NCBI GenBank assembly: GCA_021234155.1
Contig: JAJEKV010000180.1
Location: forward strand, 124,001 to 188,000
Direction of reading: 5' to 3'
Source: Isoetes taiwanensis
Lineage: Eukaryota; Streptophyta; Lycopodiopsida; Isoetales; Isoetaceae
Length of the DNA: 64,000 nucleotides
Below, in pieces: positions 9,640-57,588 of this stretch. Position 1 is the stretch's first letter. The number at the start of each line of letters is the position of its first letter. The notes under the pieces were generated by a model. It saw only the letters and a program-made list of their open reading frames with translations. It searched no databases and had not been told where the DNA came from. Both the position numbers and the translations under genes were made by a program.

Positions 9640-9795
9640 ATGATGAATGAGAATAAGAATAAGAATGATTTTTTATCGTCCACTGAGACCAATCGGCCTA
9701 TGGGACCCAGAAGGAGCGCAACAAACTTATTACTGTCTGGGTTAGAAAACCCCCGCCCCGAAGGGTTTTCGAGGGAAAAACCATGGCAGTAATAA
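9640..9795 (-). repeat. LINE/SINE 3' end, minus orientation
   Basis: Read on the minus strand this has the same landmark order as 14660-14815 and 60191-60275: a GGTTTTTCCCTCGAAAACC dyad, AGTAATAA, GGGTCCCAT, a TTGGTCTC box, GGACGNTAAAAAA and then a pentamer-like AATTCTTATTCT tail. Three copies with a shared 3' end and a (TATTC)n-type tail indicate a non-LTR retroposon family. Confidence 0.7.
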
Positions 9796-9838
9796 GAATG
9801 CTGTCAAACTGTACAAGTATACATCATCATGAAATAAA

Positions 9839-10330
<492 letters not shown>

Positions 10331-37104: not shown

Positions 37105-37640
37105 ATTACTTTGGATGCCCCCATGAAATAGATATCTATATATTCAAATCGATCTAGGCCATTCATTTAAAAATAGGTGAGGTGGTGAACACATAGCCAT
37201 TGGATCTCCATGGGGGGCATGCATGGGCATGCATGGGGGCATGCACCACATCCCCAAGCCATTGGATCAAAAGGGGAGAAGAAATCCTAGCCTTTCAATT
37301 TTGTGAGGAAGGTGCAAGGAAGGTGCCAAAAAGTGGATTTGGTGCAACAAATTATAACCGTTAGATCAAAAAGTGAGGATAAATCCTAACCCTTAACTTT
37401 TTATATTAAATTGATCTTTTCTTTTCTAAAAGAGGTGAGGTGGCACTCTCATTAATAAAAAGTTAGAAAGCATTTATGAATACCCTTTCCAAGAAGCTTC
37501 TTTTTCTTAATCGCATTCAAAGGCACGTAACTTGCAGTACAGAGGTCGGATGAAGGTGAGGCCTACGCCATTGGATCCCTCTCGTCGAGAACTTTCTAAT
37601 GACTAGTGCTTTGGCACTATTCCATTGCAATTGGAGTTAA
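37105..37640 (+). repeat. Recurrent GC-rich module
   Basis: Closest to 16320-16880: a CATGCATGGGCATGCATGGG block at about 37218-37240, AACCGTTAGATCAAAAAGTG, GGTCGGATGAAGGTGAGGCC, then the GAATCT array. Confidence 0.75.
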
Positions 37641-39500
37641 CGTGATCAGATTCTAAGAATCTTCTTAGAATCTTAGAAGTTTACGAAATCTATGGTAATT
37701 TAAGGGAATCTAGGGGAATCTTCATGAGATCTTTAAGAATCTAGAGGAATCTCAACAGAACCTTAGGGAATCTGAAGAATCTCAAGAGAATCTTCAGGAT
37801 TCTTGGAAGAATCTTTGAGAATCTAGGGGAATCCTCATAATATCTCAAGAAAGCTAAGAGAATCTACATAGAATCTTGATATAGTCTTTGGGAATTTAGG
37901 GAATCTCAAGAAAACCTTAGGGACTATGGGAACCTTAAGAGGATCTATGGGAATCTAACAGAATCTTCATCGCATCTTAGAGAATCTAAATAGAATCTTG
38001 GAGAATCTATATGAATCTTGAGAGAATAGTTCGGAATATAGGGAAATCTCGATGGAATCTTTAAGAATCTAGGGGAATCTTGATGAAATGTTGGAGAACC
38101 CAAGGAAAGCTTCGTAGGATCTAAGGGAATCTACATAGAATTGTGGGAAATCTAGGTGAATCTTAGGACAATCTTTGAGGATCTATGGGAATCTCGAGAG
38201 AATTTATGGAAATCTAGGGAATCTTCATAAAATATTTGAGAATCTAGGTGAACCTTGATAGAATCTTAGAGAATCTAGGGGAATCTACATAGAATCTTTA
38301 AAAATCTAGGGGAATCTCGATAGAATCTTTTAGATTCTATGGGAATCTTGATGGAATCTCAATCTTCATAGTATCTAAGGGAATGTAAAGGAATCTCAAT
38401 AAAATCTTTAGGAATCTGGCGAATCTTCATGAAATCCTTGAAAAATTATAGAAATCTTCATAGGATCGAAGGGAATCAAGAGACAATACAAAGAGTCATG
38501 GAAAATCTAGGTGAATCTTTGGGCAATATCTAGAAATCTAGGGGAATTTCGAGAGGACATAAGGATATCGAAGGGAATCTTCATAGGATATTTGAGAATC
38601 TAGGGGAATCTTCTTAGAATCTTAGAGAATCTAGGAGAATCTACATAGAATCTTGGGGAATTTATGTGAATCTTGAGAGAATATTTGGGAATCTTGATGG
38701 GGTCTTTGAGATTCTAGGGGAATCTTGATGGAATCTTGGAGAGCATAAAGGAGTCTACATATGATCTAAAGGAATCTTCATAAAATCTTTAATAATCGAG
38801 GGGAATATCTGGGAATCTTGATGAAATCTTGGAGAACTTAAAGGAATCTTCATAGAATCTAAGAGAATCTAAAAGAATCTTCATAAAATTTTTAGAAATC
38901 TAGGAGAATCTTGATGGAATCATGGAGAATCCAGAGGAATCTATATAGAATCTTGAGGAATCTAAGGGAATGTTGATGGAATTGTGGAGAATCTAGAGGA
39001 ATCTTTATAGAATCTATAGGAATCCAAGATAATCTACATAGAACCATGGGGAATCTGTGTGAATCTTGAGGCATCTTTAGGAATGTAGGGTAATCTCGAG
39101 AGAATTTATGGGAACCTAGGGAATCTTCATAGAAATACTTGGTAATTTTGGGGAATCTTGATAGAATCTTAGAGAATCTAGGAAATATACATAGAATCTT
39201 GAGAAAACTATGTGAATTTTGAGAGAATCTAAGAGAATCTTCATGGAATCTTGGAGAACCTTCTATGATCTAAAGGAATCACAAGGCAATCTTGGAGAAT
39301 CTTTAGGAATCACAAGAGAATCATTAAGAATTTAGGAAAATCTTGATGGAATCTTGAACAATATAGAAGGATCTACATAGAAACTTGAAGAATCTAGAGA
39401 AATCTTGGGATCTCAAGATCTTAAGGAATAATGGAAAAATTTGAGGAGAATCTTAAGGAATTTATGAAAATATCAAGAGAATCCAGTAAAATCTAAGAGA
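37640..39500. repeat. GAATCT minisatellite array, ~31-bp period
   Basis: The longest array in the window. Its clearest part (38260-38345) repeats a 31-bp unit beginning AATCTAGGGGAATCT exactly at 31-bp steps (38272, 38303). Each unit contains two or three GAATCT words, giving sub-periods of about 10-12 bp. Many units have lost register. No protein coding; open frames rich in Asp, Ser, His and Leu are by-products. Confidence 0.9.
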
Positions 39501-39575
39501 TATATCTTTGTATTTGGCTTCTAGTTGGATTTGTACCGTCCCTAACTCGTACAGGCCCTACATAGTACAAAGACT

Positions 39576-39577
<2 letters not shown>

Positions 39578-39648
<71 letters not shown>
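39578..39648. repeat. (TA)n microsatellite
   Basis: About 71 bp of TA preceding tandem copy 1. Confidence 0.98.
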
Positions 39649-39650
<2 letters not shown>

Positions 39651-41469
39651 TTATATATATAAAACTATTCTATATGTGCCAGGAAAGGATGTACCCATGC
39701 TATATAGAGATTAATGCCGACCGTCCGATTGGAGATGGAGGGCCATGATGCCGCCACCTCATGGGAGAGGTCATGCATGGGCATAGAAATATGATGGGGG
39801 ACATGCATAGGGGCATGCACCATGTCTTTAAGCCGTCGGATTAAAAGGGGAGGAGAAATCATGGTCCTTAATTTTATAAGGAAAGTGCAAGGAAGCTTCC
39901 TCAAAAGTGGATTTGGTGCAACCAATCTTAACCGTTAGATCAAAAGGGGGAGGATAAATCTTAGCCATTCATTTTTTTATTAAATTAGAATTTTTTATAT
40001 TAAAGGAGGTGAGTTGGCACCCTTTATTTAATGAAAAGATAGTGAGGTGGCAACTCATTAATTACGAAGCGTCCTTGGAAGCTTCCTTTTTTTGCGTCCC
40101 CTTCAAACGACTTTATCTTGTGGTGGAGGTCTCGGATCAAAGTGGGACCCACGCCCTTGGATTCCTCTCATCAAATGCTTTCCGATGAGTAGTGGTTTGG
40201 CATCGTTCCGTGCAATGTTGGATAATCTAAGGGAATATTCATAGAATCTAAGGGAATTTGAGAGATATTGGGATAAAGGGAACCTCAAGAGAATCTCAAG
40301 AATCTATGGGAATCTCAAAAGAATCTAGGGGAATCTAAGAAAACCTTCAAAAAAGGTTTAAGAATCGAGGGAAATCTCGATGGAATCTTAGAGATCTAAG
40401 GGGGTCTTCATAGAACTTAAGGGAATCTATAAGAATCTACATAGAATCTTGGGGAATCTAAACGAATCTTCAAATAATCTTTGAAAATCTAGGGGAATCT
40501 TTATAGAACCTCAAGAATCTAGGGGGATCTTTGTGGAATCTTAGGGAATCGCAGGAGATTCCAAGGGATCTAGGGGAATCTTTGACAGTAGGTGCGTTCT
40601 ACAGGGGAATCTTCATAGAATCTAAGGGAATCTAGAAGAATCTAGAAGAATCTTAGGATAATATTTGGAAATCTAAGGGAATCTCAAGAGAATATTTAAG
40701 ACACTAAAGGAATCTAGAGGAATCTTGGGATAACCTTTGGAATCAAGGAAATGTCAAGAGAATCTTAATGAATCTATGGGAATCAAAAGAATATAGAGGA
40801 ATCTAAGAGAAACTTCAAAAAATGTTTGAGAATCAGGGGGAATCTTTATGGAATCCTAGAGAATCTAGTGGAATCTTGATAGAATCTAAGGGAATCTAGG
40901 AGAATCTACATAGAATCTTAGGGAATCTTCAGATAATCTTTGAAAATCTAGGGGAATCTTTGTAGAACCTTAAGAATCTAGGGGATGTTTATGGAATTTT
41001 AGGGAATTTAGGGGGAATCCAAGGGGATCTAGGGGAATCTTTGACACTAGGTGTGTTCTACAGGGGGATCTTCATAGAATCTAAGGAAATCTTGAAGAAT
41101 CTACATGGAATTTTGAGGAATCTTAGGATAATCTTTGAGAATCTAGGGGAATCTCAAGAGAATCTTTAAGAATCTAAAGGAATCTAAGGGAATCTTCATA
41201 AAATCTTTGAGTATCTAGAGAATCTTGGAGAATCTATATAGAATCTTCATCGCATGACTTTAAATTTGACTTCTACTCGATTTTGTACAATTCCTCGAAG
41301 AATAGTCCGCGGATCTTGGGGAATATAAGCGCACATTGATGGAATCTCATAGTATCTAGGGACATTTTTGTAGTCTTTGGAGAATCTTGGAGAATCTTTA
41401 TAGGATCTTCGTTGGATGGCATTGCATTTGGCTTCTAGTCGAATTTGTACAGTCCCTCATAGTACAATA
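39649..41469 (+). repeat. Tandem duplication, copy 1 (module plus satellite)
   Basis: Begins CATTATATATATAAAACTAT, carries a GC-rich module (to about 40215) and a GAATCT array, and ends in TTCTAGTCGAATTTGTACAG and TCCCTCATAGTACA. It is almost base-for-base identical to 41563-43427. Confidence 0.92.
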
Positions 41470-41562
41470 ACTTGTATATTATATATATTATATATATCAG
41501 TTATCCTATTATATATATAGATATGAGGGTACTTACATACGGGGGTGTTACATATTTATATT

Positions 41563-43427
41563 CATTATATATATAAAACTATTCTATGTGTGCCAGGAAA
41601 GGATGTACCCATGCTATATAGAGATTAATGCCGACCGTCCGATTGGAGATGGAGGGCCATGATGCCGCCACCTCATGGGAGAGGTCATGTATGGGCATAG
41701 AAATATGATGGGGGACATGCATAGGGGCATGCACCATGTCTTTAAGCCGTCGGATCAAAAGGGGAGGAGAAATCATGGTCCTTAATTTTATAAGGAAAGT
41801 GCAAGGAAGCTTCCTCAAAAGTGGATTTGGTGCAACCAATCTTAACCGTTAGATCAAAAGGGGGAGGATAAATCTTAGCCATTCATTTTTTTATTAAATT
41901 AGAATTTTTTATATTAAAGGAGGTGAGTTGGCACCCTTTATTTAATGAAAAGATAGTGAGGTGGCAACTCATTAATTACGAAGCGTCCTTGGAAGCTTCC
42001 TTTTTTTGCGTCCCCTTCAAACGACTTTATCTTGTGGTGGAGGTCTCGGATCAAAGTGAGACCCACGCCGTTGGATTCCTCTCATCAAATGCTTTCCGAT
42101 GAGTAGTGGTTTGACATCGTTCCGTGCAATGTTGGATAATCTAAGGGAATATTCATAGAATCTAAGGGAATTTGAGAGATATTGGGATAATCTTTGAAAA
42201 TCAAGGGAACCTCAAGAGAATCTCAAGAATCTATGGGAATCTCAAAAGAATCTAGGGGAATCTAAGAAAACCTTCAAAAAAGGTTTAAGAATCGAGGGAA
42301 ATCTCGATGGAATCTTAGAGATCTAAGGGGGTCTTCATAGAACTTAAGGGAATCTATAAGAATCTACATAGAATCTTGGGGAATCTAAACGAATCTTCAA
42401 ATAATCTTTGAAAATCTAGGGGAATCTTTATAGAACCTCAAGAATCTAGGGGGATCTTTGTGGAATCTTAGGGAATCGCAGGAGATTCCAAGGGATCTAG
42501 GGGAATCTTTGACAGTAGGTGCGTTCTACAGGGGAATCTTCATAGAATCTAAGGGAATCTAGAAGAATCTAGATGGAATCTTGGAGAATCTAGAAGAATC
42601 TTAGGATAATATTTGGAAATCTAAGGGAATCTCAAGAGAATATTTAAGACACTAAAGGAATCTAGAGGAATCTTGGGATAACCTTTGGAATCAAGGAAAT
42701 GTCAAGAGAATCTTAATGAATCTATGGGAATCAAAAGAATATAGAGGAATCTAAGAGAAACTTCAAAAAATGTTTGAGAATCAGGGGGAATCTTTATGGA
42801 ATCCTAGAGAATCTAGTGGAATCTTGATAGAATCTAAGGGAATCTAGGAGAATCTACATAGAATCTTAGGGAATCTACAGGAATCTTCAGATAATCTTTG
42901 AAAATCTAGGGGAATCTTTGTAGAACCTTAAGAATCTAGGGGATGTTTATGGAATTTTAGGGAATTTAGGGGGAATCCAAGGGGATCTAGGGGAATCTTT
43001 GACACTAGGTGTGTTCTACAGGGGGATCTTCATAGAATCTAAGGAAATCTTGAAGAATCTACATGGAATTTTGAGGAATCTTAGGATAATCTTTGAGAAT
43101 CTAGGAGAATCTCAAGAGAATCTTTAAGAATCTAAAGGAATCTAAGGGAATCTTCATAAAATCTTTGAGTATCTAGAGAATCTTGGAGAATCTATATAGA
43201 ATCTTCATCGCATGACTTTAAATTTGACTTCTACTCGATTTTGTACAATTCCTCGAAGAATAGTCCGCGGATCTTGGGGAATATAAGCGCACATTGATGG
43301 AATCTCATAGTATCTAGGGACATTTTTGTAGTCTTTGGAGAATCTTGGAGAATCTTTATAGGATCTTCGTTGGATGGCATTGCATTTGGCTTCTAGTCGA
43401 ATTTGTACAGTCCCTCATAGTACAGTC
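41563..43427 (+). repeat. Tandem duplication, copy 2
   Basis: Starts 1,914 bp after copy 1 and ends 1,958 bp after the end of copy 1, so it is 44 bp longer. The extra bases are small insertions within the GAATCT array (near 42190, 42570 and 42870). A 93-bp spacer (41470-41562) separates the copies. Only a few substitutions separate them, so the duplication is recent. Confidence 0.92.
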
Positions 43428-43520
43428 CAGATCTGAGATGGACGGCCAGGATTCCAAGATCTACATTCAATATAATTGTATATATATAGGTGATATGATA
43501 TATATATATATTGCAAAAAA
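43424..43520 (-). repeat. Inverted fragment of the (TA)n/GC-rich module
   Basis: Reverse complement of the start of 9940-10330 (AGATCTGAGATGGACGGCC, ATTCAATATAATTGTATATA). It joins the tandem array to the reverse-transcriptase gene. Confidence 0.75.
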
Positions 43521-43623: not shown

Positions 43624-46014
43624 TTAGTCTAAAAATGCACGCAACATAGAAGCAATTTGCTTAAAAGAGACGTCTAACCTGTATGTGTTCAACATCTTTG
43701 TAAAAACTGTGACGTCAAATTTGAGGCCTGGGAAGTCTGCATTCTTCAAGGTTCTGCCCACAGTGGTCCATACATCCCTTTCATGAAATCCTTTTTGAAC
43801 AAACTGTAAAATCAACTGGTGTATCTCATGTGCTGCTTGATTTGGGCAGTTGTGCACATAAAGGTAAGGTATCAGTTGTGATATTATCACATTTTTAGCC
43901 ATGTAATAGGGCCTACATCCACTAGCATCCACAAATTTACTGATTTGGAATGGGAGGTTATCCCGCTTATCATATCTACTCATCTTAAAAATCCCATGCA
44001 TGGGGTCGAGTATTTCAATCTTGAGGTTGAGGAAGTTAATTGCTTGCCCTTTTGCTGGTACGCCATAGGGTTGTTCCCAATACATGGTTTCATCTTTGAT
44101 TTCTAGATGTTGGAGATTATATATGCTTGGAATTTTTTCATTATCCCCTTCCAGCCTAAGCGCAGTTCTAATATGCCTATTGTTAAGACTGACAAGGTCA
44201 TCAATATACCTATGTGTGGCATTAAAGGCTGCAGCTTCCTCAATTAAACCCAATTTAATGAGTTTCATAATAAATTTAAACTCGAACAGTCCTAAGTATA
44301 GGTTGCACCAAGCAGGGCTGCTGGAGAAGCCCATTGGTATACCCTTGATCTGCCTCCAAAACTTAGTGCCCATTTGCAAGAAGCAGCTCTTTAACAACCA
44401 TATATTCATGTCAATAAATGTTTCTTTGCTGATGAGACTCCATTTGTCACTGCTGGGCATTTTATCCTTCCATTCTAGGCAAACTTCATTATTACCCTTC
44501 ACCATGTACCACATCTCATAGCGCGCAGATCTAGCCTTTTGGAAACACCAGACCATATCAGCTAACTCTTGCATTACCTGACAGATCCCGTCATCCCCAT
44601 TAATGGGAATATTTTCATAGCAGCGTGCTATGTCAGCAACAAAGACATCTTTTACCTCTGCCGGTATATTACAGATGAAATCATATACAGAATTAATACA
44701 CCAGGCTGCTTTAACTTTGTTCCTTCGAAAAAAGTTAATTCTGCTAAGCTTTTCTTCACAGATTTGTGGCCAGATCTCCAAAAAGGTGTTAAGCCCTTGA
44801 GCTATCACTGTAGCAAGTTGTGAGAAAGTTGAATTGTGTGCACTAGTTAACCATCTATAAGTGCCCTTGTGCGCCTTAAAGATGCCGAACAGATAGGGGA
44901 GTTCAGAGTTGGTCAGTTCCCAGTCACCTAAGAAGTTTTGCAGATCAGAAGAAATACTAGCTTTCAATGCATTTGGATCAGAGTGGATCACCTCAAAGTC
45001 AGTACTGGACAATCTGACAAGTGCCTGTTCTCTAATGTATCTTGGGCAAATGAACGAGGGGTTATTAGCAGCCTTATCCACCCCTGAGATGTACAAATTG
45101 TTAACAAGCCATTGAATATTTTTGATGACAGCATTGTCATTAATAGGGAACTTTTTCTTGTGTTTAGCATTCTGTTTGATGAAGCACTTTGCCATCTTTT
45201 TAGCTTTACTAAAAATTTCAGCTTTACAGGTGTTAACTAGTTTCTCCTTAACACCAAGAATGGAATATCTATGCACACTGAAAAACTGATCAATGGTCTT
45301 CCTGATTTCCCTCGTGAATTGTAGCAGCGAGAAAGGCTGGTCTGGAATGTGGTTAAGGCCAAGACGGATCCAGTTCCTAAGAGCCTTATTATGCACAATT
45401 TCAAGTTTTGTGGTCCGTATATGGCCAATGCTGTGGTCGACATATTTTTTAAGACTTGGATTTGCGCATGGGCAAGGCATCTCAGCAGTTTCAGCAAAAA
45501 CTCTTTTTGGCTTATACAGCATGTTTTTTAAATTTCGTGCATATTTCCAGCCAAAAATAGTGTCCTCACAAATTTTACTGCCAACTAGGCCAAGCTTTTT
45601 GCTGATTACATCCGTAAAGATGCTTGCAAACTTGATTTTATCAATGGCTTTTGAAAAAAACTTGAAATGCACAAACTTAGTCTTCCTTTTGCTGTTAATG
45701 TAGGTCTGCAACGCCCATCGGCCTTCCGCTTTCTTTACCAATACTTTTGTATTTTTCTGGTTAGACAACCCCACAGTATCCATTAATGCAATAAACATTA
45801 AGCAAACAATTAGCAACTTACTTGTATGGTTATACGCGACAGTGAGGAAGCTAATCTGATATACAATACCAAAGCTTGCTGAGGTATTGTCTATGTAGTT
45901 TTTATTGCATAGCAATATAGTCTTAGATGGTAGCCCAATAGGGTTTACCCTTGTCTTAAAATAGCCAAAGGGCCATTCATAGTTACCAAACATAGCAATA
46001 AACGTAAAATAGTA
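43624..46014 (-). CDS. Penelope-like element reverse transcriptase, C-terminal exon
   Basis: A 789-residue open frame from the ATG at 45993, or 796 residues if spliced at 46014. RT motifs run in order, numbered from that Met: VDKAANNPSFICPRY near 305, LFGIFKAHKGTYRWLTSAHN near 368 (the HK...R fingers block of Penelope-like enzymes), motif A FVADIARCYENIPI (Asp454), motif B GIPMGFSSSPAWCNLYL (551-567), motif C RYIDDLVSLNN (Asp598, Asp599), then FLNLKIEI and YDKRD near 674. An upstream CPC...H...GHI block near 173-191 looks like a zinc-binding site. All catalytic Asp residues are kept, with no stop or frameshift. No GIY-YIG nuclease is seen at either end, unlike canonical Penelope elements. It primes DNA synthesis from an RNA template; a TERT-related or domesticated role is possible. 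Confidence 0.85.
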   Translation of the reverse strand, partial: YYFTFIAMFGNYEWPFGYFKTRVNPIGLPSKTILLCNKNYIDNTSASFGIVYQISFLTVAYNHTSKLLIVCLMFIALMDTVGLSNQKNTKVLVKKAEGRWALQTYINSKRKTKFVHFKFFSKAIDKIKFASIFTDVISKKLGLVGSKICEDTIFGWKYARNLKNMLYKPKRVFAETAEMPCPCANPSLKKYVDHSIGHIRTTKLEIVHNKALRNWIRLGLNHIPDQPFSLLQFTREIRKTIDQFFSVHRYSILGVKEKLVNTCKAEIFSKAKKMAKCFIKQNAKHKKKFPINDNAVIKNIQWLVNNLYISGVDKAANNPSFICPRYIREQALVRLSSTDFEVIHSDPNALKASISSDLQNFLGDWELTNSELPYLFGIFKAHKGTYRWLTSAHNSTFSQLATVIAQGLNTFLEIWPQICEEKLSRINFFRRNKVKAAWCINSVYDFICNIPAEVKDVFVADIARCYENIPINGDDGICQVMQELADMVWCFQKARSARYEMWYMVKGNNEVCLEWKDKMPSSDKWSLISKETFIDMNIWLLKSCFLQMGTKFWRQIKGIPMGFSSSPAWCNLYLGLFEFKFIMKLIKLGLIEEAAAFNATHRYIDDLVSLNNRHIRTALRLEGDNEKIPSIYNLQHLEIKDETMYWEQPYGVPAKGQAINFLNLKIEILDPMHGIFKMSRYDKRDNLPFQISKFVDASGCRPYYMAKNVIISQLIPYLYVHNCPNQAAHEIHQLILQFVQKGFHERDVWTTVGRTLKNADFPGLKFDVTVFTKMLNTYRLDVSFKQIASMLRAFLD

Positions 46015-46067
46015 CTAGATTGCAGAAATGCTTAGAATTCAAGAATGAATGTTTTGTTACCTTATAC
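46015..46067 (-). other. Putative 53-nt intron in the reverse-transcriptase gene
   Basis: The upstream exon ends ...GAAAATCAA before GTATAAGG, and the downstream exon starts after TGCAATCTAG. Splicing joins the two frames in phase 0; without it the upstream frame ends at TAA (46064-46062). At 53 nt it is shorter than usual plant introns, so a small deletion breaking the frame is the alternative. Confidence 0.5.
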
Positions 46068-46613
46068 TTGATTTTCAAAGTCGAGTTTGCCTTTGCTTTG
46101 TCTGATGCTTGATCTGCCATTCTTGTTCACATTGCCTTTGTTGACCGAATATTCAGTATTGCATGCCGCATTGCCAATTCCATGATTGTTGAGATTTGTG
46201 CCACTTCCAGACGCTGTTGAACTTCCGCTTGTTTTTTTCTTTCCAGTGGGTGGCATGATGATTTGAATTTCTTCCTCATCCCCATGCCTTACTTTTTTCC
46301 GGTAACTGCTCATCCTAATTTTTTCCTCATGTTCCTGTTCCATGGCTTTGAGCAGAAAGTCTTTGCCTTTAATAGTCTTTTCCAGAATATCCGCCATTTT
46401 AGAGTTCCCAAATTCCTGTTTTAAGTTGGCATTTTCATCCTCCGCAAATCTAATTGCCATTTTAATCATGCATTCCCTAACTTTTAGGTACCCAATATAA
46501 GCTAGGGCACCAATTCTCAACGGTTTTGAATTCATTATCTCATGGAAATGCTGGAACCTATAGCGAGGAGATTTATTGGGATCAATCTTATCCATACTGT
46601 TCATTATATACCA
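46068..46613 (-). CDS. Penelope-like RT gene, middle exon, downstream half
   Basis: Starting directly at the transposon's left end, the frame reads WYIMNSMDKIDPNKSPRYRF, then a charged helical region (KVRECMIKMAIRFAEDENAN and EKTIKGKDFLLKAMEQEHEE, likely coiled coil) and a Ser/Gly/Asn-rich basic linker. It has no recognised domain and is the N-terminal extension of the RT protein. Codons extending further upstream to 46688 belong to the inserted transposon and are spurious. The frame continues the ORF at 54401-55546 across the insertion. Confidence 0.75.
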
Positions 46614-46650
46614 TACTGGGTGAAAGTATCTTTGGTGGGTAGCAAAAAAC

Positions 46651-46963
46651 GACCCGAAAGACCAAAGACCAAAGACACCAAAATACATTTTTCCCCACCG
46701 TCATACATTTTTTTTCCCACCCTTCACCTATATAGTACCACCTATATTCTGCCCGCCTATTCGTCTAGCCGGTGCCGTTTATACAATCATTACTGTTTTG
46801 TCGCCCCGTAATGAAAGCGACCCCTAACTGGAACCACTAGACAAACGAAACGAACTTTCAATTTGTGTTTTTCCAAATCTCTCTTCCCCAACTTTCTCTA
46901 CTCCTACCAAGCAACCCGCGAATTTGCGCTTTTCGGTTTCCACTTTATACAAACGGATCAACC
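46651..46963 (+). promoter_or_regulatory. Left subterminal region and putative promoter
   Basis: Between the left terminal repeat and the first ATG of the plus-strand gene lie short direct repeats (AAAGACCAAAGACCAAAGAC; CATACATTTTT twice) and a CTATATAGTACC TATA-like box near 46730. The leader is pyrimidine-rich (CTCTCTTCCCCAACTTTCTC), common before plant start sites, and the start context is AACCATGGTAA. Function is inferred from position only. Confidence 0.4.
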
Positions 46964-47999
46964 ATGGTAAAGAAGGTGATTGATCCGCCCGCTCAAGCAG
47001 TAATTCCAACGGAACCCATTATCCGGGTAAGCAAAAAGCAACAAAACAAAATTTCAATGGGTTTAGGGTTCAACCCTGTTAATTCGATTTTCTTGCATTC
47101 TTCCGGCCGGAAGAAACGTTCCCTTAAGACCGGACTGGCTGATTGCCGAACCGAAGAAGACTTCCATGCGTATGCAGGTCTGCCAAACGAGGGCGTTCAT
47201 CCCTCTCAATTTCGAACAGACCTCATATCTGCAGCAGAGTACAATGAAGTTTGGGATACCAACGGGGTCATTCCTGGCAAAACTTCCATTGACAAGGTGA
47301 GGCGAACACCTAAGAAGCTCTAATAGAGCTTCTGAGCAAAATATACCCGGACGGGTTGAAGAACAGAGAAGTTAGAAAGACAGTATCATACCTATTTGCA
47401 TTCAATAACTGCCTCAGAGCAAAGCAGGATCCACAGAAGTTCAAGGTTAATTGGGCAGCAGTTGCAGCAAAGAGTAGAGCCTACAAGCGAAGGTTAAAAG
47501 TGAACCGGCAAGCAGTGCTCCAGCAAGCAGGGCAGAGGCCAGCAAATCTCAGCAAACCACAGCACCTGAAAGCATAGCAGAAAGGCCAGTTTCAGGAGGC
47601 ACTGGTATTAAATTAGAAGGGAGGCCGTCCATAAGGAGCTTTGCACTGTGCCCAACAGCTTACACAGCTTATGGGGAGAACATATCACGCCTGGAAGTCC
47701 TATGCAAAGATTTGCAGGAAACCCTAGACACGCAGCAGGCTGATTTAGTCTCCAAGAAGGAGCTAGTTGTCCAGTCCCAGGCTAAGGGAGCTTTCTTCTT
47801 GGCTTCAGAAGAGAAATTGCAGAAAATTAAAGACAACATCTCACGTCTTCAAGCAGTCACAGGTCCTGATGCTGGTGCCTCTGCTGAGCTACTGAGCTTG
47901 GAGAGAGAGAAAGACATGGCAGAGTACATGCTCAAAGCCCTTGTTGAAATGGGGGGTGGCCCAATAGATGAGGGGATAGTTCAACAGTGGCCACTATAG
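46964..47999 (+). pseudogene. Transposon plus-strand gene, N-terminal and coiled-coil part (unknown family)
   Basis: From the ATG at 46964 a 119-codon frame starts MVKKVIDPPAQAVIPTEPII, with a basic middle and an acidic EEDFHAYAGLPNEGVHPSQF segment. A one-base shift at about 47320 moves to a frame reading LIELLSKIYPDGLKNREVRK through to a basic helix (RAYKRRLKVNRQAVLQQAG). A further shift near 47540 leads to ISRLEVLCKDLQETLDTQQA and a long heptad-rich coiled coil ending at TAG near 47999. I do not recognise the family. The three frames read as one protein once the shifts are allowed for, so it was a real gene and is now broken. Confidence 0.65.
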
Positions 48000-48870
48000 C
48001 TGCCGAGGTTGCAAACACCGGTGCAACTTGCAAAAGCCAAGCAAAGATTTACGAGAATCTCAACAGGGCTTAGGGAACTTACAAGGAGAGTCGGCCGAAC
48101 TTGTGAGCATCTATCCCGTGACATTCAAAGGTTGCCAATTGGAGATGAGGAGCGATGCTCCACATGCGGGCATTCGGGATGATTACACCCTAAGTCTGAA
48201 GCTGAAATGTGGCCACGTATATCATGTCAGCTGCCTGAGTTTGCTTATGGAGAAGACACACTGCCTCGAATGCTCAGAAACAGTTCCAGCAGGCTTAGTG
48301 GAGGAATTGGGGAAGATACCAAGCAGAACCCCCATCTTTGGGCAACACACAAAACAAATAGTTGAGACAATTGACCTAGATGAGGTGGTAGCTACAACTC
48401 CAGACAGCAACAGGAAAAGGAAGCATGTTAAAACACCTCTTAGTAAAAGGACCCCGGACACAAGTCTACAAGGACTCGAACTCCACAAGCAAGAACAGCC
48501 AAAAAAGGTACACGCTTGTTTCTGGCGGGTACATTAGAAGCGCTGTAGGCGAACAAAGACCGCGAAGCAAGCGGTCACAAAGACATTGCAAAAGACCTGA
48601 AAGCACTGTGCTAAAGACACCAACACGGTCCAAAGCAGATTCCAGTAGTTCTGACGATGCTGAGAAATACAATATAGTTCCAAATTCTGCAGCAACCTCT
48701 ACAAAGGCCTCCTCTAACACTGTTGATGCAGGGGCAGACAAGGATGTTGAAGACCCGAATATAGTGGATAAGCAGGTGAACAAGGTTGTGAGCCGAATCA
48801 CAAAACTCTGGGTCCGGGACCAAAAGGTCCCGGACCCCGAAAGGAGGGTGAGTCGATGATTCGGTTGATG
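48000..48870 (+). pseudogene. RING-H2-like zinc finger and low-complexity tail
   Basis: Continuing the same gene, one frame gives a helix (LTRRVGRTCEHLSRDIQRLP) and the first zinc pair CSTCGHSG near 48155. After a frameshift the next frame supplies LKLKCGHVYHVSCLSLLMEK and THCLECSETVP. The combined spacing, C-x2-C ... C-x-H-x2-H-x2-C ... C-x2-C, is that of a RING-H2 finger, the E2-binding module of ubiquitin ligases. Downstream comes a Lys/Arg/Ser/Thr-rich tail (DSNRKRKHVKTPLSKR and similar) without structure. The shift between the first pair and the rest shows decay. RING fingers are unusual in plant DNA transposons. Confidence 0.65.
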
Positions 48871-49315
48871 AGGGGCGTGCCTATAGGCGTGGCACTAGGA
48901 AAAAAAACAGCATGTCTAATGTAATTTATATGTACTCGTTTCAGGGCCAATTTTGTTTGCACAAGACTTGGCAAAACGATCAGTTAAAAGGTTTTTGTGT
49001 AATACCATAATATATGTTTTTTCCCCCATTGTGTCCTTGTAAAATTTGTTTCGAGTTTCAACCTAGGGATCAATATGCATTTGCATGCGAAGGAAGGAGA
49101 AGGCACCACAAGTGGTGCTTTACTTGAATCTGAGGTGAAGATAGTGAGAGAACCCGCATTTATAATGAAGAAACCAAAGTGCAAAAACAAACTCTTACAT
49201 ATAAAAGGTGCAATCCAATATTTAAGTTCAAGCAGTTATTTTACTTGTCTTATTTCACTTGGCATAATGTCCTGCCAGTTTCAGTTGGTAATTGTAGCAC
49301 CACTTTTGATTTTGC
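48871..49315. other. Probable intron of the plus-strand transposon gene
   Basis: AT-rich DNA ending in a long pyrimidine-containing stretch and TTTTGCAG at about 49318, after which protein-like sequence resumes. Confidence 0.4.
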
Positions 49316-49318
49316 AGG

Positions 49319-50365
49319 AGACCAAGGACCCTAAGCCACCACTTGGTACGGGTTCTAACGATAGCGTGAAACACCCATACATTGGGGACGGGGGAGATAC
49401 TAGTAAGGATGTATCTAGCTATGGCTATCAAAGACTCTCCATCACCTGGTAGCAAAGATAAACCCGAGTCCAAAGAGGTCGCGGCAACTTCCAAAGACGC
49501 CCGGATAGCACTTCCCGGCCACACCGGCAAAGACGCCCGGATAGCACTTCCCAAAGCCACCCGGTCCGGCCACGCATAAACGCGATGCGGCAGACCATCG
49601 GCGGTGGTTGCAAAGCGTCGAGGATGGACACCCGCACGGAAGTGCATGGTGCTTGACATAAATGGTGTAATCGCACGAACAACAGAGGAGAATGAATCAA
49701 AAATCTTGCATCCACCACAAAGCGAACCATGTTGTAAAAGAAACAAGTAAGTACCTCATTTGCGGACCAGGGGTATCATGAGTTTGTGGAGTGGGCAATC
49801 GCAGAGGGTTTGATGTTGTGATTTGGAGTGCTTCTCTACTTCGATACAAGGGATATGGTGGATGCATTGTTCCCGATCTGCACCAGATTCTTGAAGATAT
49901 ATGGTCAAGAGCATTGCTATGCATGCGAGCATCCAACCAACGCTGAGAAAAAGCAACTATTTTTCAAGGAGTTGAAGGTTGTTCTTGAGGATTTTCCTCA
50001 ATATCATGGTATGATTTTCTTGGTTGATGACAGCTTTGCACAAAGGGTTTCTAAACCCCGCACACACAACCGCTCTGTTATGCCTTTCAAGGGGCAAGAA
50101 GAGGACAATTTTTTTTCGCGAAGTTTGTGTGTCCGGCTTTGGAATACTTGGCCTCTCATACAAGATCAGAAAACGATCTCACAAATTGATTTCACCGATG
50201 CATGGTTGGCCCCGAGAGGCGCTTGCGATCTTTGGATTACTTGTCTCAACAACTACCTTGTCTCGACCTACTATATCCTCAATGCTCCTATTGAAGTACA
50301 AAAGGCAATTCTGGGCACCCTTCCCAGGCGACGAGCATAGATTTGAGGACTTCGATGACTTATGA
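49319..50365 (+). pseudogene. FCP1/SCP-like HAD phosphatase segment carried by the transposon
   Basis: After an acceptor, a linker contains two copies of KDARIALP. Then comes RKCMVLDINGVIARTTEEN (49640 on), matching motif I of plant FCP1-like HAD phosphatases, where DLNGLL-type replaces DxDxT. Further on in shifting frames are YHEFVEWAIAEG, FDVVIWSAS (motif II, at 49807), TRDMVDALFPICTRFLKIYG, QEHCYACEHP, LFFKELKVVLEDFPQYHGMI and FLVDDSFAQRV (motif IV Asp-Asp). The order and spacing are those of the NLI-interacting factor fold, which dephosphorylates phosphoserine in RNA polymerase II tails and other targets. At least two stops or shifts break it. Either a captured host exon set or a true accessory transposon gene; conserved position in other copies would decide. 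Confidence 0.75.
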
Positions 50366-50768
50366 AGTAACCATTGTACACTACTTTTTGTAATATATGC
50401 AGATTACTTTGTGTTATATCTTGAGTATTGAGTGATCTTGTAAGATGTCTCAAATATTGAGTGTACAATTTTCTCGTAATATATATCAAGCTTACTCGCA
50501 ATACTACAAGCATTGTTTCCAAAGATTAAAATACTCAATACAAAGACTACTACAAGCATTGTTTCCAATACTAAAAGACTCCAATACTCACAAGCATTGT
50601 CTCCAACATAATGATCAAAATTTGAGACAAGTACACAAGTAACTACAGACCTGTTAAAATGATAAAACAACTAGGTCAAAGCATATTCAACCTTCATATG
50701 GCAGACTGTCAAGGATCATCTGGTGAGTAGCCTGATCAAGGGAAAATCTGTTAGTGCCAGGAATCTGA
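50366..50768. other. Convergent 3' region between the two transposon genes
   Basis: AT-rich, with three near-copies of ACAAGCATTGTNTCCAA at about 50500-50605 and AATACTCAATAC-type words. No coding sequence. Both genes end toward this stretch. Confidence 0.6.
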
Positions 50769-50769
50769 T

Positions 50770-53700
50770 TCATCTCAAACTTGATGGTGATACGTGATGA
50801 TCATCTTTGAAGGTCGGACCTTTGTCTTCAAGTAGCTCCCAAGTACCATCGGGCCGGGCAAAGATAGTACAAACCAGCCAACACATGTTCATCGACATTG
50901 AAGGTTCGACCCAGCTATCCTTGACAATTCTGTCAAGGATATGCCTCGGCTTAACACATTTCACCACATAGAAATCTGCATTCTCCTGATTTCCCTCCTC
51001 GGCTACAACAGCAAAGTTATCACCTTCCTCTATGTTTCCACTAAGCCATTCTCCATCACCTTCAAAAATGCCTCATCGATTTCGCCTTGATTACCTTCAC
51101 CAATGGACTTTTTCTGGCTTTAGAGTAACATATTTCCAATTCTTTAACCTCTCGCTTGTTCACACAAGATGACCGGTTTCCTTTCAAACAGCTTACCACG
51201 TAAACAACTTAAACCTCTATGAGCCACCCTTGTGCTTGATTTGGCCAAGTATGTCCCGATCTTTCGTGTATTTCCTTCGTCCCTTCTACCACGGCGCGGG
51301 TCCCAGCCGGTTACGTCCTATCAACATCATCCTTTCCAATGAACCAAAAGTGCCCGCAAAAGCCAAAGAACAACTATTGCGGTTCACATACAAGATCTGA
51401 GGGCACATTACAAACATTACACGCCAGATAAAAGCGGATAAAAGCACTTTGTGAAGCGGATGAAAGCACGTTAAAAGCGGATGAATGCGGATGAAAGCAT
51501 ATTACCTCTTGATGTCCCCGTTCTTTGGCACCTTCATTTCCAACTCATAGCGAATTCATTGGCATCGGCAAGCACCCTAAATCTCACTCCATCATACTTG
51601 AGTCTGCTCTCTAGTGAATGCCCCTTTGAGGACTGCCCCTTGCCCATCGTGCTCTCCCTTACCATGGGCTGTCCCAAAGAAATTCCATATTATTTCCTTC
51701 CCTAGCTCGTGGTGATATCTTGGTAGGAAATAGAATGGTCTCGCAGATTTGAATTGGCTAGAACAACCATCCGACCAAACTATATGCCCGGAGAATTCTA
51801 CACCATTTGATACTAGCCATGAATTGTGCTTTCTAAGACAAGTGTTGCACAAAAAGAGTGTCATGAATCTTGTCATCACTCAAGTAAAATGGGGTTTCCT
51901 TCAATAGCTTTACGATCCCGTAGCTGCTGTCCATCCTATAATGCGATGTGGACGAGAATTGTTATTTGGTCATTGTGCCAATCTTTGGCTTTGAACCTCC
52001 CTTTGTATTTTGATGTTTGTAATTCTCAAAGAAAAATCAATTCTGAAAAACAATGGTGCCATCTTGGATATTGTCCAAGCACCTCTTGAATTGCATGGCC
52101 CGCCACCTAGCCCTCATGGTTGTGTGACACTTAATATCTTCAACGTGGAACACGATATGAAATGAAAGCCTTCACCGCCGTTCTCTTGTAAGACAATCTA
52201 AGAACCGGCTTTGGTCCTTTCTTTTTTTCCCCTTGCCATTTGAGGTCTCATCTTGTGCTTTGCGGCTTCAATTGTGTCCCACCACCGCCTTGGATTTCTT
52301 ACTTTTGTTTCCCTTCTTCTCAACTTGTCTCTGCGGCTTTCAGTGTCCTACCAAATACCTTGGATTTCTTACTTTTGTTTCCATTCTTCTCAAAATGTCT
52401 TTGCAGCCTTCAGGGAGGTCCCACCAGCTACCTTGGACTTCTTACTTTGGTTTCCTTCTTGGTGGCATTAGATCTTTTCTTTACTGCCGCCACCAGCTTC
52501 CTTGGTAACGCAGTCGCAACTCCATCGCTTCTTACGTCTCCACTGGAATCAGTAACAAGGTGCGTAGCATAAAAAAAGAAGATCGGCGCAAGTTGAAAGC
52601 ACAAAAGCGATGAGTCGGTGATGACAAGACATATCGGCGATGCTTCAAAGAAACAATAAAGAGAGTATTACCTTTTCAAACGTCTTCCATTCAAGCAAGA
52701 ACTCGCGTGATTCTCTCTTTCTCTTGGACATATAGGAAGACTTTTCGGTGCCACGCCGACATGTCCGCATCAAGCGATCATGTTTATACCATTCTTCACC
52801 CTCGCCCTTGTTGCAAACCCACGACCCTCGAGAGCTCATTTGGTTGAGTCATACGTGATGTTGGTCGGCGGACACTTCTCACCGGTCCACAGACCTCGCG
52901 GGTGCACTTGCACTCTTCACCATGGAATCCGGTTTTATTTTGACCTTAATGCATTCGGTGCTACCCCGCATACTCCAACTTCATATGGTATATGCAACAA
53001 CAGGTTTCCCTTTTTCGATACTTTCTTCACATAAATAGGCTTCAACTTCGAAAGCCTTTAAGCAAACAGGTGTTCGGGATGTCCCTTTTTGTATTGTTGA
53101 TATAGTCGCAAAATTTGAATGGTGGCCTTTGGTTAGAAATAGCAGAAAAAAAAGTTTGTATGGAAACTTATACCTGTGTGACCTCCAGAAGGTGCAAGGG
53201 ATAAGAAATTCGGAAGCCTGACTCTCCAACAGTGTTCACAACATCTTTCTTGCAAGGAGAGACTCTGCTGTTTTCTTTCCAGAATTCTGTTATGCTTTGC
53301 TTGCAAGCAGGGGTGAGAGAATCGCACCTCAACCTCTTTTGGAAAGCAGACCACGGACCATTTCCAAGGAAGGCTTCCGATTTCCTTAATGCAGCAGTTG
53401 CAATTGTTGACCTCATGCAACCTATCATAAGAAATATTGCACATGTATCAATGAACATATCCCAGCCAGCATCACTCAGCAGATACAAGCACTTGAAAGC
53501 ATGAAGAAGCACAGGCATGAAGACAAGAAATAGATGTACCTAACAGCCCTGCCATAGTGGAATTGCATCTCGAATTTGTGGAAGAAGCCATCACAAGTGT
53601 TGAGGTTCGGCTCTCCCAATATCATGGTTCCTTAGCCTCTTTGTGGCTGCCATTGTCTGTTTTCAAGTTGTTGAGCAAAGACTCCGCCCTTGCACTCCTT

Positions 53701-54087
53701 TGGATTTGGCAAAAGTCCAGGTTCTGAGATTTCCATTTCGTGGTGATGAACCACCCTCTTCATCACATCAGCCTTGAGTTCTGGTGAATGCTTTTTGGTG
53801 AGCTTATTGAAGTAATCAACTACTTGCTTGGCTATTTCTTGCCTGCGTCTCATGCTCAGATCCTCCCGTTCAACCGCTGCTCTTTTCATCTTATTCCTTA
53901 ATCTGTATTCTCTCTTTCTCTCTGCATCCAATTTCTTGTAAATTGCAGAGGAAACTGGATCTTCACGTGATATTTCCTGTGTTGGATTGACATCCAACAA
54001 ATTTGGAACACTGTATTGGGATTCATCAGGCCGAAAATCCAATGCTAAACGCGTGATTGCCTCCAGGCCGGTATCAGGGAGCGCCAT
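50770..54087 (-). pseudogene. DDE transposase (Sola-like, tentative), multi-exon and decayed
   Basis: The start is the ATG at 54087 (MALPDTGLEAITRLALDF), 313 bp inside the right terminal repeat. Exon 1 (to about 53540) is a basic helical N-terminus with one in-frame TAA at 53634. Exon 2 (53421-53174) has FWKENSRVSPCKKDV and SYPLHLLEVTQ before GTATAAG. Catalytic pieces follow in several frames: IDF then FENYKHQ (first Asp, about 52020-52045), REVQSQ then DWHNDQITILVHI, HIVWSDGCSSQFKSARPFYF (second Asp, about 51775), and FFGTAHGKGEHDGQGAVLKG (about 51640). A C-terminal beta-rich part (NFAVVAEEGNQENADFYVVK) ends at 50770. The DFxENY / SDGxxxQFK / HGKGxxDG series is a DDE transposase family seen in many invertebrates and non-seed plants. 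At least three frameshifts make it inactive. Confidence 0.8.
51405..51510. repeat. Short tandem repeat in a transposase intron
   Basis: GCGGATGAAAGCA-type units of about 13-23 bp repeat five times, apparently in non-coding DNA between transposase pieces. Confidence 0.7.
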
Positions 54088-54277
54088 GAAATTCCTGAGA
54101 GAGGGAGGATAATTGAATTGGAGGGAGAATTTTCGCGGCCCATGACGAAGTAATCCAATTTGCAACGTACTACCACACCACTCGCGCGAAAATCCAGCCA
54201 AAAACCCACAATCATTATCCTAACGGTTCATTCGTGAGGTGGACGTGTTAGTACATGAAGGGCGTAAAAAAAATGAC

Positions 54278-54370
54278 GGGCAGTTACGCTTAAAGCACCC
54301 CAAATTAAGCAAAAGCAGGGGTGCTTTAAGCGGGCTAAAACCCTGCTATAAGCATGCGTCCGGACGCATG
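54278..54370. other. Right subterminal palindromes of the transposon
   Basis: GCTTAAAGCACCCC and GGGGTGCTTTAAGC are perfect 14-bp inverted copies (54288-54331), followed by the perfect 20-bp palindrome GCATGCGTCCGGACGCATGC (54351-54370) that abuts the terminal repeat. No equivalent is seen at the left end. Subterminal dyads of this kind often bind transposase. Confidence 0.8.
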
Positions 54371-54400
54371 CTTTTGCTACCCACCAGCATACTTTCACCC

Positions 54401-55546
54401 TACTGCCTGGTCATACCAGGTAATATGGTCTTTGCACGCATCCTCATCATTATTTCTGTTATTACTGTTCTTAGCAAATCTGTCGCATCTGCACTTGAAG
54501 TATGGACAAAAAGTCCTCCACATTTTGTTGATGTAGAAGCTGTCTCTCGTTTCTATTGTATTGGCGTTATGCCCTTTCTGGCCAATATAAATGCCATTAT
54601 CTTTATTGCACTTCTTGCCAAAAAACTGGGTATTCTTGAATGGAAAGTCAACATCCATTTTAGTGATCCGCTTCCTGAAGTTCACGGCATCTTTGTGTGC
54701 TTGGTCCACTTCAGCGTTGGTAATGCCCATCAAAGCTTTTAGGGTGTTAACACTAAGGGGTGCAAGAACACCAAGATTTCCAGTTTCCCAAAGTGCCTGT
54801 CTGCAACAAATCCCATGTAACTCAACCAGTCTAGGGGACATAACTGGAAAGTGCCCACAGTTGTAAAGCGTAAGTGCCTTAATGTTGTAATCCTCTAACT
54901 GCTTGCTGACCTCATCAATTATATTATCAGTGTTGTTATCAGCCACGGCCTCGACGTCACCCATTATATCCTGTACTTCTTCGTCTGGTAGCATACTAAT
55001 GTCAAAGAGACAGTTAGAGGTGGATTTCACTCTTTTTTCCTTTGGTTTTGGTTTCTGCTGTACTCTTTTGCCCATAGGTGGATTAGCAACTCGTGCATTA
55101 TTTGTCTTTTCCAAAGCAGTGGCCACTTTAACAAGGTTAAGTACATCCATCAATTCTCGATCCTGTGACTCAGCATGTGCTATTGGGAGTGCCACCCCCA
55201 GGTCGTCAATCATTTTCATAGCGTTGATCAAGGTACAATCAGGTTTGTTGACTTTAGAAACAAGATCCAGCATATTGTTAACCCCAAGGAATGTTATGAT
55301 AGATACCTCATCCTCACCCAAGAATGCTTCCTTTTTTATGAGATATTTATGAATGTCGGTTTTGACAATACAACCCAGCAGCATCTGTACTGCATTATTT
55401 GGTGGAATTATACTTGTTATGCCATACCCAAGAGCAGCCACGTTGGGGTCCCATTTTGGTCCATTCTTTGCTCCAGATGCCTTGTTTGAAGTTTCAGGCT
55501 TGTCTGTAATCTCATCAGGTGTACTGATCACAGATATAATTCCTTC
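54401..55546 (-). CDS. Penelope-like RT gene, middle exon, upstream half
   Basis: 382 open codons after the acceptor ATATTCAG at 55547, starting EGIISVISTPDEITDKPETS and ending ITWYDQAV exactly at the transposon's right end. It contains an acidic and Lys-rich linker, then a region with several Cys/His (YNCGHFPV, HGICCRQALWE, FCPYFKCRCDRF) that may bind zinc. No known domain is recognised. The frame continues without a gap into 46613-46068 once the transposon and one TACT are ignored. No stops. It joins to the first exon in phase 0. Confidence 0.75.
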
Positions 55547-57588
55547 CTGAATATACATTCAAAATCCAGATTAGTAAAAAACATCTTCATTACTTAATAC
55601 AAATATGATATGTCAGAGGTCAGCAAACTGCTGGGGTGGAAAGCACAAAAATAGAGGTCTCCATGGCTAGATCGGTTAAACCAATGCTCTGAAATCTATG
55701 AATATATACCTAGGCCTAAACTTAACCTTTTGGCTAAGCCAAGACATCTCGGATAATCCTAAACCTAAGTCTAGGTAATCTAAGACTTATCAGACCTTAG
55801 CCTAAGCTAAGGTAACCATGGAGACCTCCAGTTTTACAAATCTATTTACATAATGCCTTTAATTTCATAGTTTAAGAAGATAGATTATATTGTTTATGCA
55901 CAGGGGTCCATTTATGTCATTTAAGTTAAAGCACCGAATGTATGAATTAAGTCCACAAGTTAACACCTCAAAAAGAGTCCCTTACGAGTTGAATTAGATC
56001 TGCTCAAGTTTCAGACCACTTGAGTTCAACATACATGGAAGTACTCTATTGTGTTTCAAACCAAACAAATATGAAAGCAAACGAAAATACTTGTGTCTAT
56101 TTCAATGCTGAGTTGTGAGCACTAAGAGATATAGATTTTCTACTTCTCGGGCTGGTATTCATTTTCAAAAGTATGCTGTTTACAGACCAGGGTAATAACC
56201 TATTAATGTCAAGTGCAATCCACACATTATGCTAGAAATTAAATTGCTAAGTCTGGACCCTGGATAAAACAATATTCAAGACCCTGATGATCCAAAGCAA
56301 TAGAGCAGGGATCTGGATTATGGAAAATAAAACAGCAGCTTAGAACCAAGCTAAATTAAACCAGCCCATCAAGAATGACTATCATCAAGAATGACTATTG
56401 CTGATGGATTGGGAATGCTGCAAAAACATGCTTCATAGAAGAAACGAGTTCAAGTGTTTATAACAGTTAATTCCAGATGAGTTCTAGAAAATTACCAGTT
56501 AAATTTGAGCCAATATTTTTAGCTCCATTTAAGCGTCTGAGCTAAAATTTGATTTCAAATTACCTTAGTGGCTTAAACAAAGCCTTAACAGAAAAGAAAT
56601 AGCAGTAATAAAGTCCAAAGTGTTGAAGTCCTCAAATGAAAATGCTTCTTCTCGCGCATCACAATTAAAAGTAATTGGAATTGGAGATGAGAACCGGTTA
56701 CCTGTAACCAAACAAACCAACATTAGCAAGGATTTGGTAATGAGGCAAGGGTTATCAGGTAAGCAATGGTTCATCATGGCTTTTCGCCCTTCACCAATAA
56801 GAATAATCAAGTAATAAATGAATACCAAAAGAGACTGAAGCTAGAATAAATAGGTTGAAGCCTATCCAAATATTTATTGCCATAGCAGAATATACTATGT
56901 ATTTCCTATTCACCGGGTGTTTAGCGATCACCCTGGACCAGATTATTTATTGATAGGTGCAGCCTATACGTGGCACCACCAGGCAAATAAGTTAGATGTT
57001 CAAAAAGAAGTTCACAAAGTTAGCAAACCCGTTTACATCCTATTTCCGTGATTTCCTCCAAATCCGGTCTACCTTTTGAAACCAGTCCACCTTTTGAAAA
57101 CGTTCATTTGTGAGCCCGTAATCACACCTCCAAAGTATTCTTTGCCAAAGCACGAAAAGTGTGTATCTAAACCGGACAGATCATATCTCATTTTACCGCC
57201 TCGAAAAAGCCAAGTTTGGAAAAGCAAGAACCGTTTCTCATAACGGAAAAAGTCATGACAAATCTGCTGCTGAAGGTATGAACTCTGCTAGGAGAGTGCA
57301 GATTTAGAGCAGAAAAGGCAAAGAAAGAATCTAAGATTAACACTGCAACTCTTGGTCAAAACAAATCCTTCACGTTTAATGCAAATCAACGATTAATGCA
57401 ACTCTTAAATGCATTAATTATCCAAGAGAAGTTCCATTTTCCTGCTTCATCAATTTTAAGTTTAAGCTATCTAAAGAAAGCTATCAGCTATTTTGCAAAG
57501 CTAATCAAAATCGTGCTGCATTTGAGTTAAATTAGGCCACTATTTATGGCACAGACCTATAATGCTAATCTAGAAATTGACATCAAAC
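55547..57588 (-). other. Long phase-0 intron of the RT gene
   Basis: About 2 kb between donor CAG|GTTTGATG (57588) and acceptor ATATTCAG (55547). A stretch at 56565-56702 after TTGGTTACAG is open (ITFNCDAREEAFSFEDFNTL) and might be a further or alternative exon, but its phase does not fit a simple insertion. The rest is AT-rich without recognisable features. Confidence 0.5.

Follow-up and report, generated by a model that had tools for sequence, protein, structure and literature searches.

A two-gene, probable DDE DNA transposon of Isoetes taiwanensis with a selected RING-HAD accessory gene

Two convergent genes between terminal inverted repeats

A 64-kb stretch of Isoetes taiwanensis DNA (contig JAJEKV010000180.1, positions 124,001 to 188,000; hereafter the window) contains, at window positions 46618-54400, a 7783-bp DNA transposon that is probably of the cut-and-paste type and carries two convergent genes (Table 1). 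One, reading leftward from 54087 and so inward from the right end, encodes a probable DDE transposase. The other, the accessory gene, reads rightward from 46964, inward from the left end, and is borne by the element itself, being present in every near-full-length copy that we retrieved from the genome. Furthermore, the accessory protein was under purifying selection while two subfamilies of the transposon, A and B, diverged.

Within the window, the terminal sequence GGGTGAAAGTAT is found at two places only, 46618 and 54389-54400, in inverted orientation, and the terminal inverted repeat (TIR) extends to about 29-30 bp with a small gap inside. Because the score of a 200-bp alignment of the two ends was equalled by 6 of 1000 random window pairs, simple repeats included, the assignment of the ends rests on terminal position, target site duplication and copies rather than on that score. 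The ends, the convergent genes, the RING-H2-like ligands and the FCP1-like (NIF) segment described in the original prediction were all confirmed in the window element, and the target site duplication TACT flanks it on both sides. We also observed that the right end (54280-54400) holds a hairpin with a 15-bp stem besides a 24-bp perfect palindrome, and that the single-strand DNA fold z-score was -5.08 there and -0.76 at the left end.

The accessory protein starts with a conserved domain, which is followed by a coiled coil, then a RING-H2-like finger and a basic linker; in three of the four families seen, an FCP1/NIF-type HAD domain comes after these. The RING ligands follow the spacing C-x2-C-x15-C-x-H-x2-H-x2-C-x8/9-C-x2-C (C3H2C3) in the majority sequences of A and B and in two relatives from further families described below, L039 and L049; in another, L037, the second half alone could be placed in one open frame. 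Of the window open frames tested individually, none matched the NIF profile (PF03031), and frame 49822-50340 gave a chance-level Rad50 hook match alone. A hand-stitched read-through of the window HAD matched NIF with E 3.2e-10 (40.4 bits against a cut-off of 21.8), and unstitched frames of copy L025 (E 1.1e-18, 67.9 bits) and of L037 (E 3.6e-14, 53.2 bits) did so against the same cut-off. A structure model of the HAD had a predicted local distance difference test (pLDDT) score of 37.2.

The original prediction suggested an accessory system that could act on host ubiquitin or RNA polymerase II regulation. In one version of this idea, the HAD would be a working C-terminal domain-type phosphatase that alters RNA polymerase II and thereby increases transposon transcription. 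The NIF scores lie well over the cut-off, and the motif II serine, the lysine motif and the DD motif are found in both aligned sequences. However, wherever motif I was read (window, B consensus, L037, L049), it is DxNG and not DxDx (readings DINGV, DVNGV, DLNGV and DLNGA), compared with DLDHT in L051, an FCP1-like gene of the same genome; moreover, searches of one family (L039/L048) did not reveal the module. Because of the DxNG motif, phosphatase activity appears doubtful, and we judge this version improbable. The transposon HAD resembles plant FCP1/SCP (NIF) and DxNG-type HAD proteins in belonging to the Pfam NIF family, and a 309-amino-acid (aa) DxNG-type HAD frame with the motif DMNG lies elsewhere in the genome (L050, C1027:14500000-14504000), which hints at a possible source lineage. 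Unlike the transposon gene, L050 and L051 (4 kb each) were not matched at E<=0.01 by queries for the transposase, the RING or the coiled coil. Several NIF matches similar to L050 were seen among the genome matches listed.

The transposase was not matched by Pfam DDE profiles. D71 and D176 are invariant in 5 sequences, and the third acidic residue could be E215 or D217, both likewise invariant. A low-confidence model (pLDDT 49.9) showed an RNase H-like strand order; Foldseek returned 0 matches to it at E<=0.001, and the top 50 included RNase H, Argonaute, integrase and other folds. Weak matches of the stitched transposase to capsid proteins in the PDB (best E 0.1) were taken as chance. Imperfect tandem repeats of about 70 bp occupy 52288-52486 (minus strand) inside the gene, and Lys-rich repeats are found there in copies L021 and L024.

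Table 1. Features of the transposon and its insertion site (window coordinates)
Feature	Position	Strand	Remark
Target site duplication TACT, left copy	46614-46617		flank reading
Left TIR	46618-46647	+	GGGTGAAAGTATGCTGGTGGGTAGCAAAA at both ends in several copies
Accessory gene, N-terminal conserved domain	46964-47493	+	MVKKVIDPP..., EALIELLSKIYPDGLKN, NWAAVAAK
Accessory gene, coiled-coil region	47600-47975	+	judged by eye
Accessory gene, RING-H2-like finger	48156-48273	+	frame change needed inside in window copy
Accessory gene, NIF/FCP1-type HAD domain	49640-50250	+
HAD motif I, DINGV	49646-49669	+
HAD motif II, VVIWSAS	49815-49835	+
HAD Lys motif	49960-49983	+
HAD DD motif	50020-50037	+
DDE transposase gene	50740-54087	-	probably with introns; start at 54087
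Transposase C-terminal frame	50770-51072	-
Transposase HGKGEHDGQG	51637-51687	-
Transposase VWSDGCSSQFKS	51745-51786	-
Transposase ENYKHQ	52010-52027	-	first catalytic D region
Transposase TCCCIYH	52979-53005	-
Transposase STIATAALRK	53369-53410	-
Subterminal perfect palindrome AAGCATGCGTCCGGACGCATGCTT, right end	54350-54373		24 bp; 16-bp core intact in 13 of 21 copies
Right TIR	54372-54400	-
Target site duplication TACT, right copy	54401-54404		flank reading

Recurrence of the accessory gene and selection on it

The genome (1,658,258,908 bases in 1110 contigs) carries hundreds of such termini: the terminal 12-mer had 309 forward and 286 reverse exact matches, compared with 41 and 44 for a reversed-pattern control. 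Among 100 places listed, 25 plus/minus pairs lay less than 10 kb apart, and the 20 of these that were retrieved all align over 6593-7783 bp of the window element. Exact 4-bp duplications, differing in sequence, flank 19 of the 20 (L027 lacks one). The copies form the two subfamilies, A (12 copies and the window element) and B (8 copies), with a cross-identity of 74-82%. Both genes could be aligned in every copy, as could the N-terminal, coiled-coil and HAD blocks of the accessory gene; the RING block aligned in all except L017.

Genome searches, in each of which about 150 candidates were scored so that totals are lower bounds, gave at least 154 matches to the catalytic part of the transposase (from 9403 first-look candidates) and at least 150 to the HAD (from 4138), many of them without a stop codon. 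Among the 150 HAD matches listed, 57 had a convergent transposase match within 3 kb, mostly about 1.3 kb away, while no same-strand match was seen within 5 kb of any of them and no divergent one within 3 kb; 141 of the 154 listed transposase matches entered this count.

In three further families, a left gene encoding coiled coil and RING likewise converges on a transposase, whose catalytic part is about 47-59% identical to that of the window family. The first comprises L037 and L038 (TIR GGGTGTAAATTC...), flanked by the duplications AAGA and ACAT, respectively, with 54-56% identity in the catalytic part. Its left gene combines RING motifs with the coiled coil and with a NIF HAD, which in L037 lies within a 394-aa open frame. 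The second, L049, was picked with the NIF profile from an apparent repeated group of NIF matches; its transposase is of the same kind and shares 47-51% identity with the window family and 59-70% with L037. In its left gene, a 455-aa open frame covers the coiled coil and RING, and a 292-aa one the HAD (DLNGALV). In the third, L039 (TIR 27/27, duplication TAAC) and its close relative L048 both have the coiled coil and RING, and the N-terminal domain was weakly matched (E 0.004 in L048). HAD identity between families is 31-46%. Since the HAD was found in three of the four families, coiled coil and RING are the core of the accessory protein and the HAD is a module. The L037 element itself sits in another long open frame that looks transposase-like by eye (flanks oriented 700-1677 and 8997-9971).

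To estimate selection, in-frame blocks of individual copies served as references onto which each copy was projected, and the A and B majority sequences were compared by the ratio of nonsynonymous to synonymous substitution rates (dN/dS). Whole-element majority consensuses, which were still frameshifted, were excluded, and codons with a majority stop or without a callable majority were dropped (110 of 114 kept in the N block, 115 of 123 in the coiled coil, 192 of 204 in the RING); a single majority stop remained in each of two blocks, the B version of N and the A version of the RING. dN/dS was 0.26 for the accessory gene (572 codons; 1.10 and 1.75 in the other sense frames) and 0.29 for the transposase (439 codons; 0.95 and 1.06). 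Accessory blocks gave, with 95% bootstrap ranges, 0.25 for N (0.12-0.48), 0.25 for the coiled coil (0.10-0.45), 0.23 for the RING (0.14-0.35) and 0.25 for the HAD (0.12-0.52); the transposase catalytic block gave 0.19 (0.10-0.34). A-B dS was 0.57-0.83 across the three blocks N, coiled coil and RING (46964-48540) and 0.08-0.17 in the HAD and transposase (49640-54087). This contrast suggests an exchange between lineages that involved the left part of the gene.

The original prediction had asked whether the left gene is present, intact and under purifying selection in autonomous copies, and had allowed that RING/HAD sequence confined to this copy would be a one-off captured host fragment. The recurrence of the gene in all 20 copies and in three further families excludes such confinement, and the A-B dN/dS of 0.26 bears out the selection. 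Because the gene can be aligned in all copies, it is not a one-off capture. The idea that passive host gene fragments were captured in this one copy, which could appeal to the many frameshifts of the window copy and to the DxNG-type HAD of L050 with no match to this transposase nearby, is thus refuted by the copies and keeps a negligible probability; the frameshifts, moreover, track CAG/CTG sites.

Alternatively, the left protein may serve the transposition complex as a subunit with a structural or DNA-binding task; its RING would then be a zinc-stabilized contact module and not an E3 ligase. The convergent pairing with the transposase and the similar dN/dS of both genes are consistent with this, as is the persistence of coiled coil and RING where the HAD was not found. 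However, a NIF/HAD module constrained at a dN/dS of 0.25 in the window's family is no obvious part of a DNA-binding partner, and we consider the subunit role unlikely, if still a serious contender.

Frameshifts, probable assembly error and the insertion site

Intactness, as proposed in the original prediction, held in part. In none of the retrieved A or B copies did long open frames extend across both genes. No frame exceeded 383 aa, and introns and likely assembly errors blur the picture. We counted 1793 short indels (<=6 bp; 20 longer ones were dropped) in the coding blocks of 21 copies (L009-L028 and the window element). Their rate at CAG/CTG was 4.20 times that elsewhere, compared with 1.05 for the reversed motif GAC/GTC; the other controls gave 1.99 (CG), 1.97 (CCG/CGG), 1.78 (GC), 1.30 (GGC/GCC) and 1.28 (homopolymers). 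In the window copy, 32 of 48 counted indels fell at CHG/CG sites, blocks with the window as reference contributing none. Near the left end, some copies show CAGC where others, the window included, show CAAAG.

CHG sites in plant transposons are commonly methylated. The I. taiwanensis assembly is described as built from nanopore reads with racon and pilon polishing (PMC8566536). Taken with the CAG/CTG enrichment, this suggests that the frameshifts are probably, for the most part, basecalling or assembly errors in methylated repeats beyond the reach of short-read polishing; since the GC-rich controls were also raised, the link to methylation is one that we infer. The CAG/CTG pattern also weakens an initial interpretation in which the window copy is a decayed pseudogene. 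These results are also a warning that, in plant assemblies built from nanopore reads, methylated repeats may have frames that look broken without being so.

The window transposon lies inserted in an open frame of another, seemingly mobile, element. Excision in silico, leaving one TACT, yielded a 569-aa open frame on the minus strand, an outcome for which in-frame joining alone has a chance of 1 in 3 and which removal of 1 or 7 bases also gives. The seeming retroelement around the insertion comprises minus-strand frames at 43627-46014 and at 46065-46617 joined with 54405-55558. The former (796 aa) had a sub-threshold RVT_1 match (E 0.0018, 18.5 bits against a cut-off of 29.6), and plant endonuclease-lacking Penelope-like elements, as tabulated in PMC9033089, are a candidate identity. 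Farther left, at 37200-43430, degenerate GAATCT-rich repeats form a long array whose periods include 10, 21 and 31 bp.

Relation to known transposons and a possible role of the accessory protein

Sola1-3 elements are described as having 4-bp duplications, TIRs of 11-1124 bp and lengths of 2-9 kb, and as occurring in spore-bearing land plants (PMC10741241, PMC9033089). The elements studied here share the 4-bp duplication (in the window, 19 of 20 copies, L037, L038 and L039), have TIRs of 29 bp in several copies and 27/27 in L039, and fall within the 2-9 kb range. Sola transposases have a DDD triad; here D71 and D176 are invariant, and the third residue could be E215 or D217. The transposon is thus Sola-like by duplication length, TIR length and size. 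Genes for a RING or a HAD are not known to us from Sola elements. An Ectocarpus element, Sola1-1_Ec32, is reported to encode a ParB/DNA methyltransferase opposite in strand to its transposase, with a proposed action on the element itself (PMC12477816). The opposite-strand arrangement is shared; in contrast, the accessory domains are unrelated, and Sola1-1_Ec32 measures 21.5 kb.

VANDAL MULE with VANC, Spm with TnpA and MuDR with MURB are plant transposons that encode a second regulatory or anti-silencing protein. Unlike the element described here, they belong to other superfamilies, with other duplication lengths and protein domains. In the RAG1-RAG2 transposon, the RING is associated with RAG1 itself, RAG2 has other domains and the duplication is 5 bp, whereas here the RING lies in the partner protein and the duplication is 4 bp. 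Both systems provide a transposase and a partner protein from one element (outlined for RAG1-RAG2 in PMC4411706).

Relatives were not found among viral contigs (by transposase fragment, terminal pattern, two degenerate motif patterns and stitched HAD) or GTDB contigs (by transposase fragment or motif pattern), and the element DNA was unmatched among plasmids; these collections, being prokaryotic or viral, say little on other plants. A PDB sequence search with the stitched HAD gave no match. A literature search by title or abstract, with subscription papers mostly outside its coverage, returned no transposon with a RING and FCP1/HAD pair. A DNA transposon with an accessory gene is of a known kind, but we have not seen these accessory domains described for such genes. 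Tentatively, and at rather less than even chances, the families may represent an undescribed lineage of transposase plus coiled-coil RING protein, usually with a DxNG HAD, that has its own ubiquitin-ligase-type anti-silencing or targeting factor reading a phosphorylated host protein, without described counterpart.

Overall, the best explanation, which we favor by a modest measure, is a two-gene DDE DNA transposon with a selected RING-HAD accessory protein that promotes its propagation. The accessory product is probably nuclear and probably aids the spread of the element. In the likeliest mode of action, the coiled coil would multimerize the protein, and the RING would recruit an E2 enzyme and so ubiquitinate a host protein or one of the transposase complex. 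Because the HAD carries DxNG, and thus lacks the second Asp of the DxDx pair, binding of a phosphorylated partner is favored over catalysis; this partner could be a silencing factor or the tail of RNA polymerase II. By analogy with plant transposon anti-silencing proteins, the element might thereby escape silencing or become transcribed. Alternatively, the RING-HAD protein could control the transposition complex.

Several observations weigh against this explanation, the absence of long open frames among them. RING profile scores stayed below the Pfam cut-off throughout (best zf-RING_2 19.0 bits against 27.3), so that the RING call rests on ligand spacing, and HAD queries found no HAD in L039 or L048, both copies of that family. 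One antisense frame of each gene also gave a low dN/dS (accessory 1.10, 1.55 and 0.51; transposase 1.06, 0.85 and 0.38), and the 95% ranges of the transposase N (0.45, 0.16-1.39) and mid (0.58, 0.14-2.58) blocks span 1. Within subfamilies, dN/dS was 0.49-0.79 rather than 1. Selection is not visible between L037 and L038, since dN/dS, on few changes, was 0.93 for the RING part, 0.80 for the HAD frame and 0.67 for the HAD domain, and the L038 HAD is broken by 8 indel blocks relative to L037. Finally, the anti-silencing role draws on the analogy just mentioned.

Recognizable domains are rare among the accessory proteins that plant DNA transposons encode. If the favored explanation is true, an abundant mobile element would be using ubiquitin together with phospho-protein recognition, and the selected RING-HAD gene would be a concrete, testable candidate for escape from silencing.

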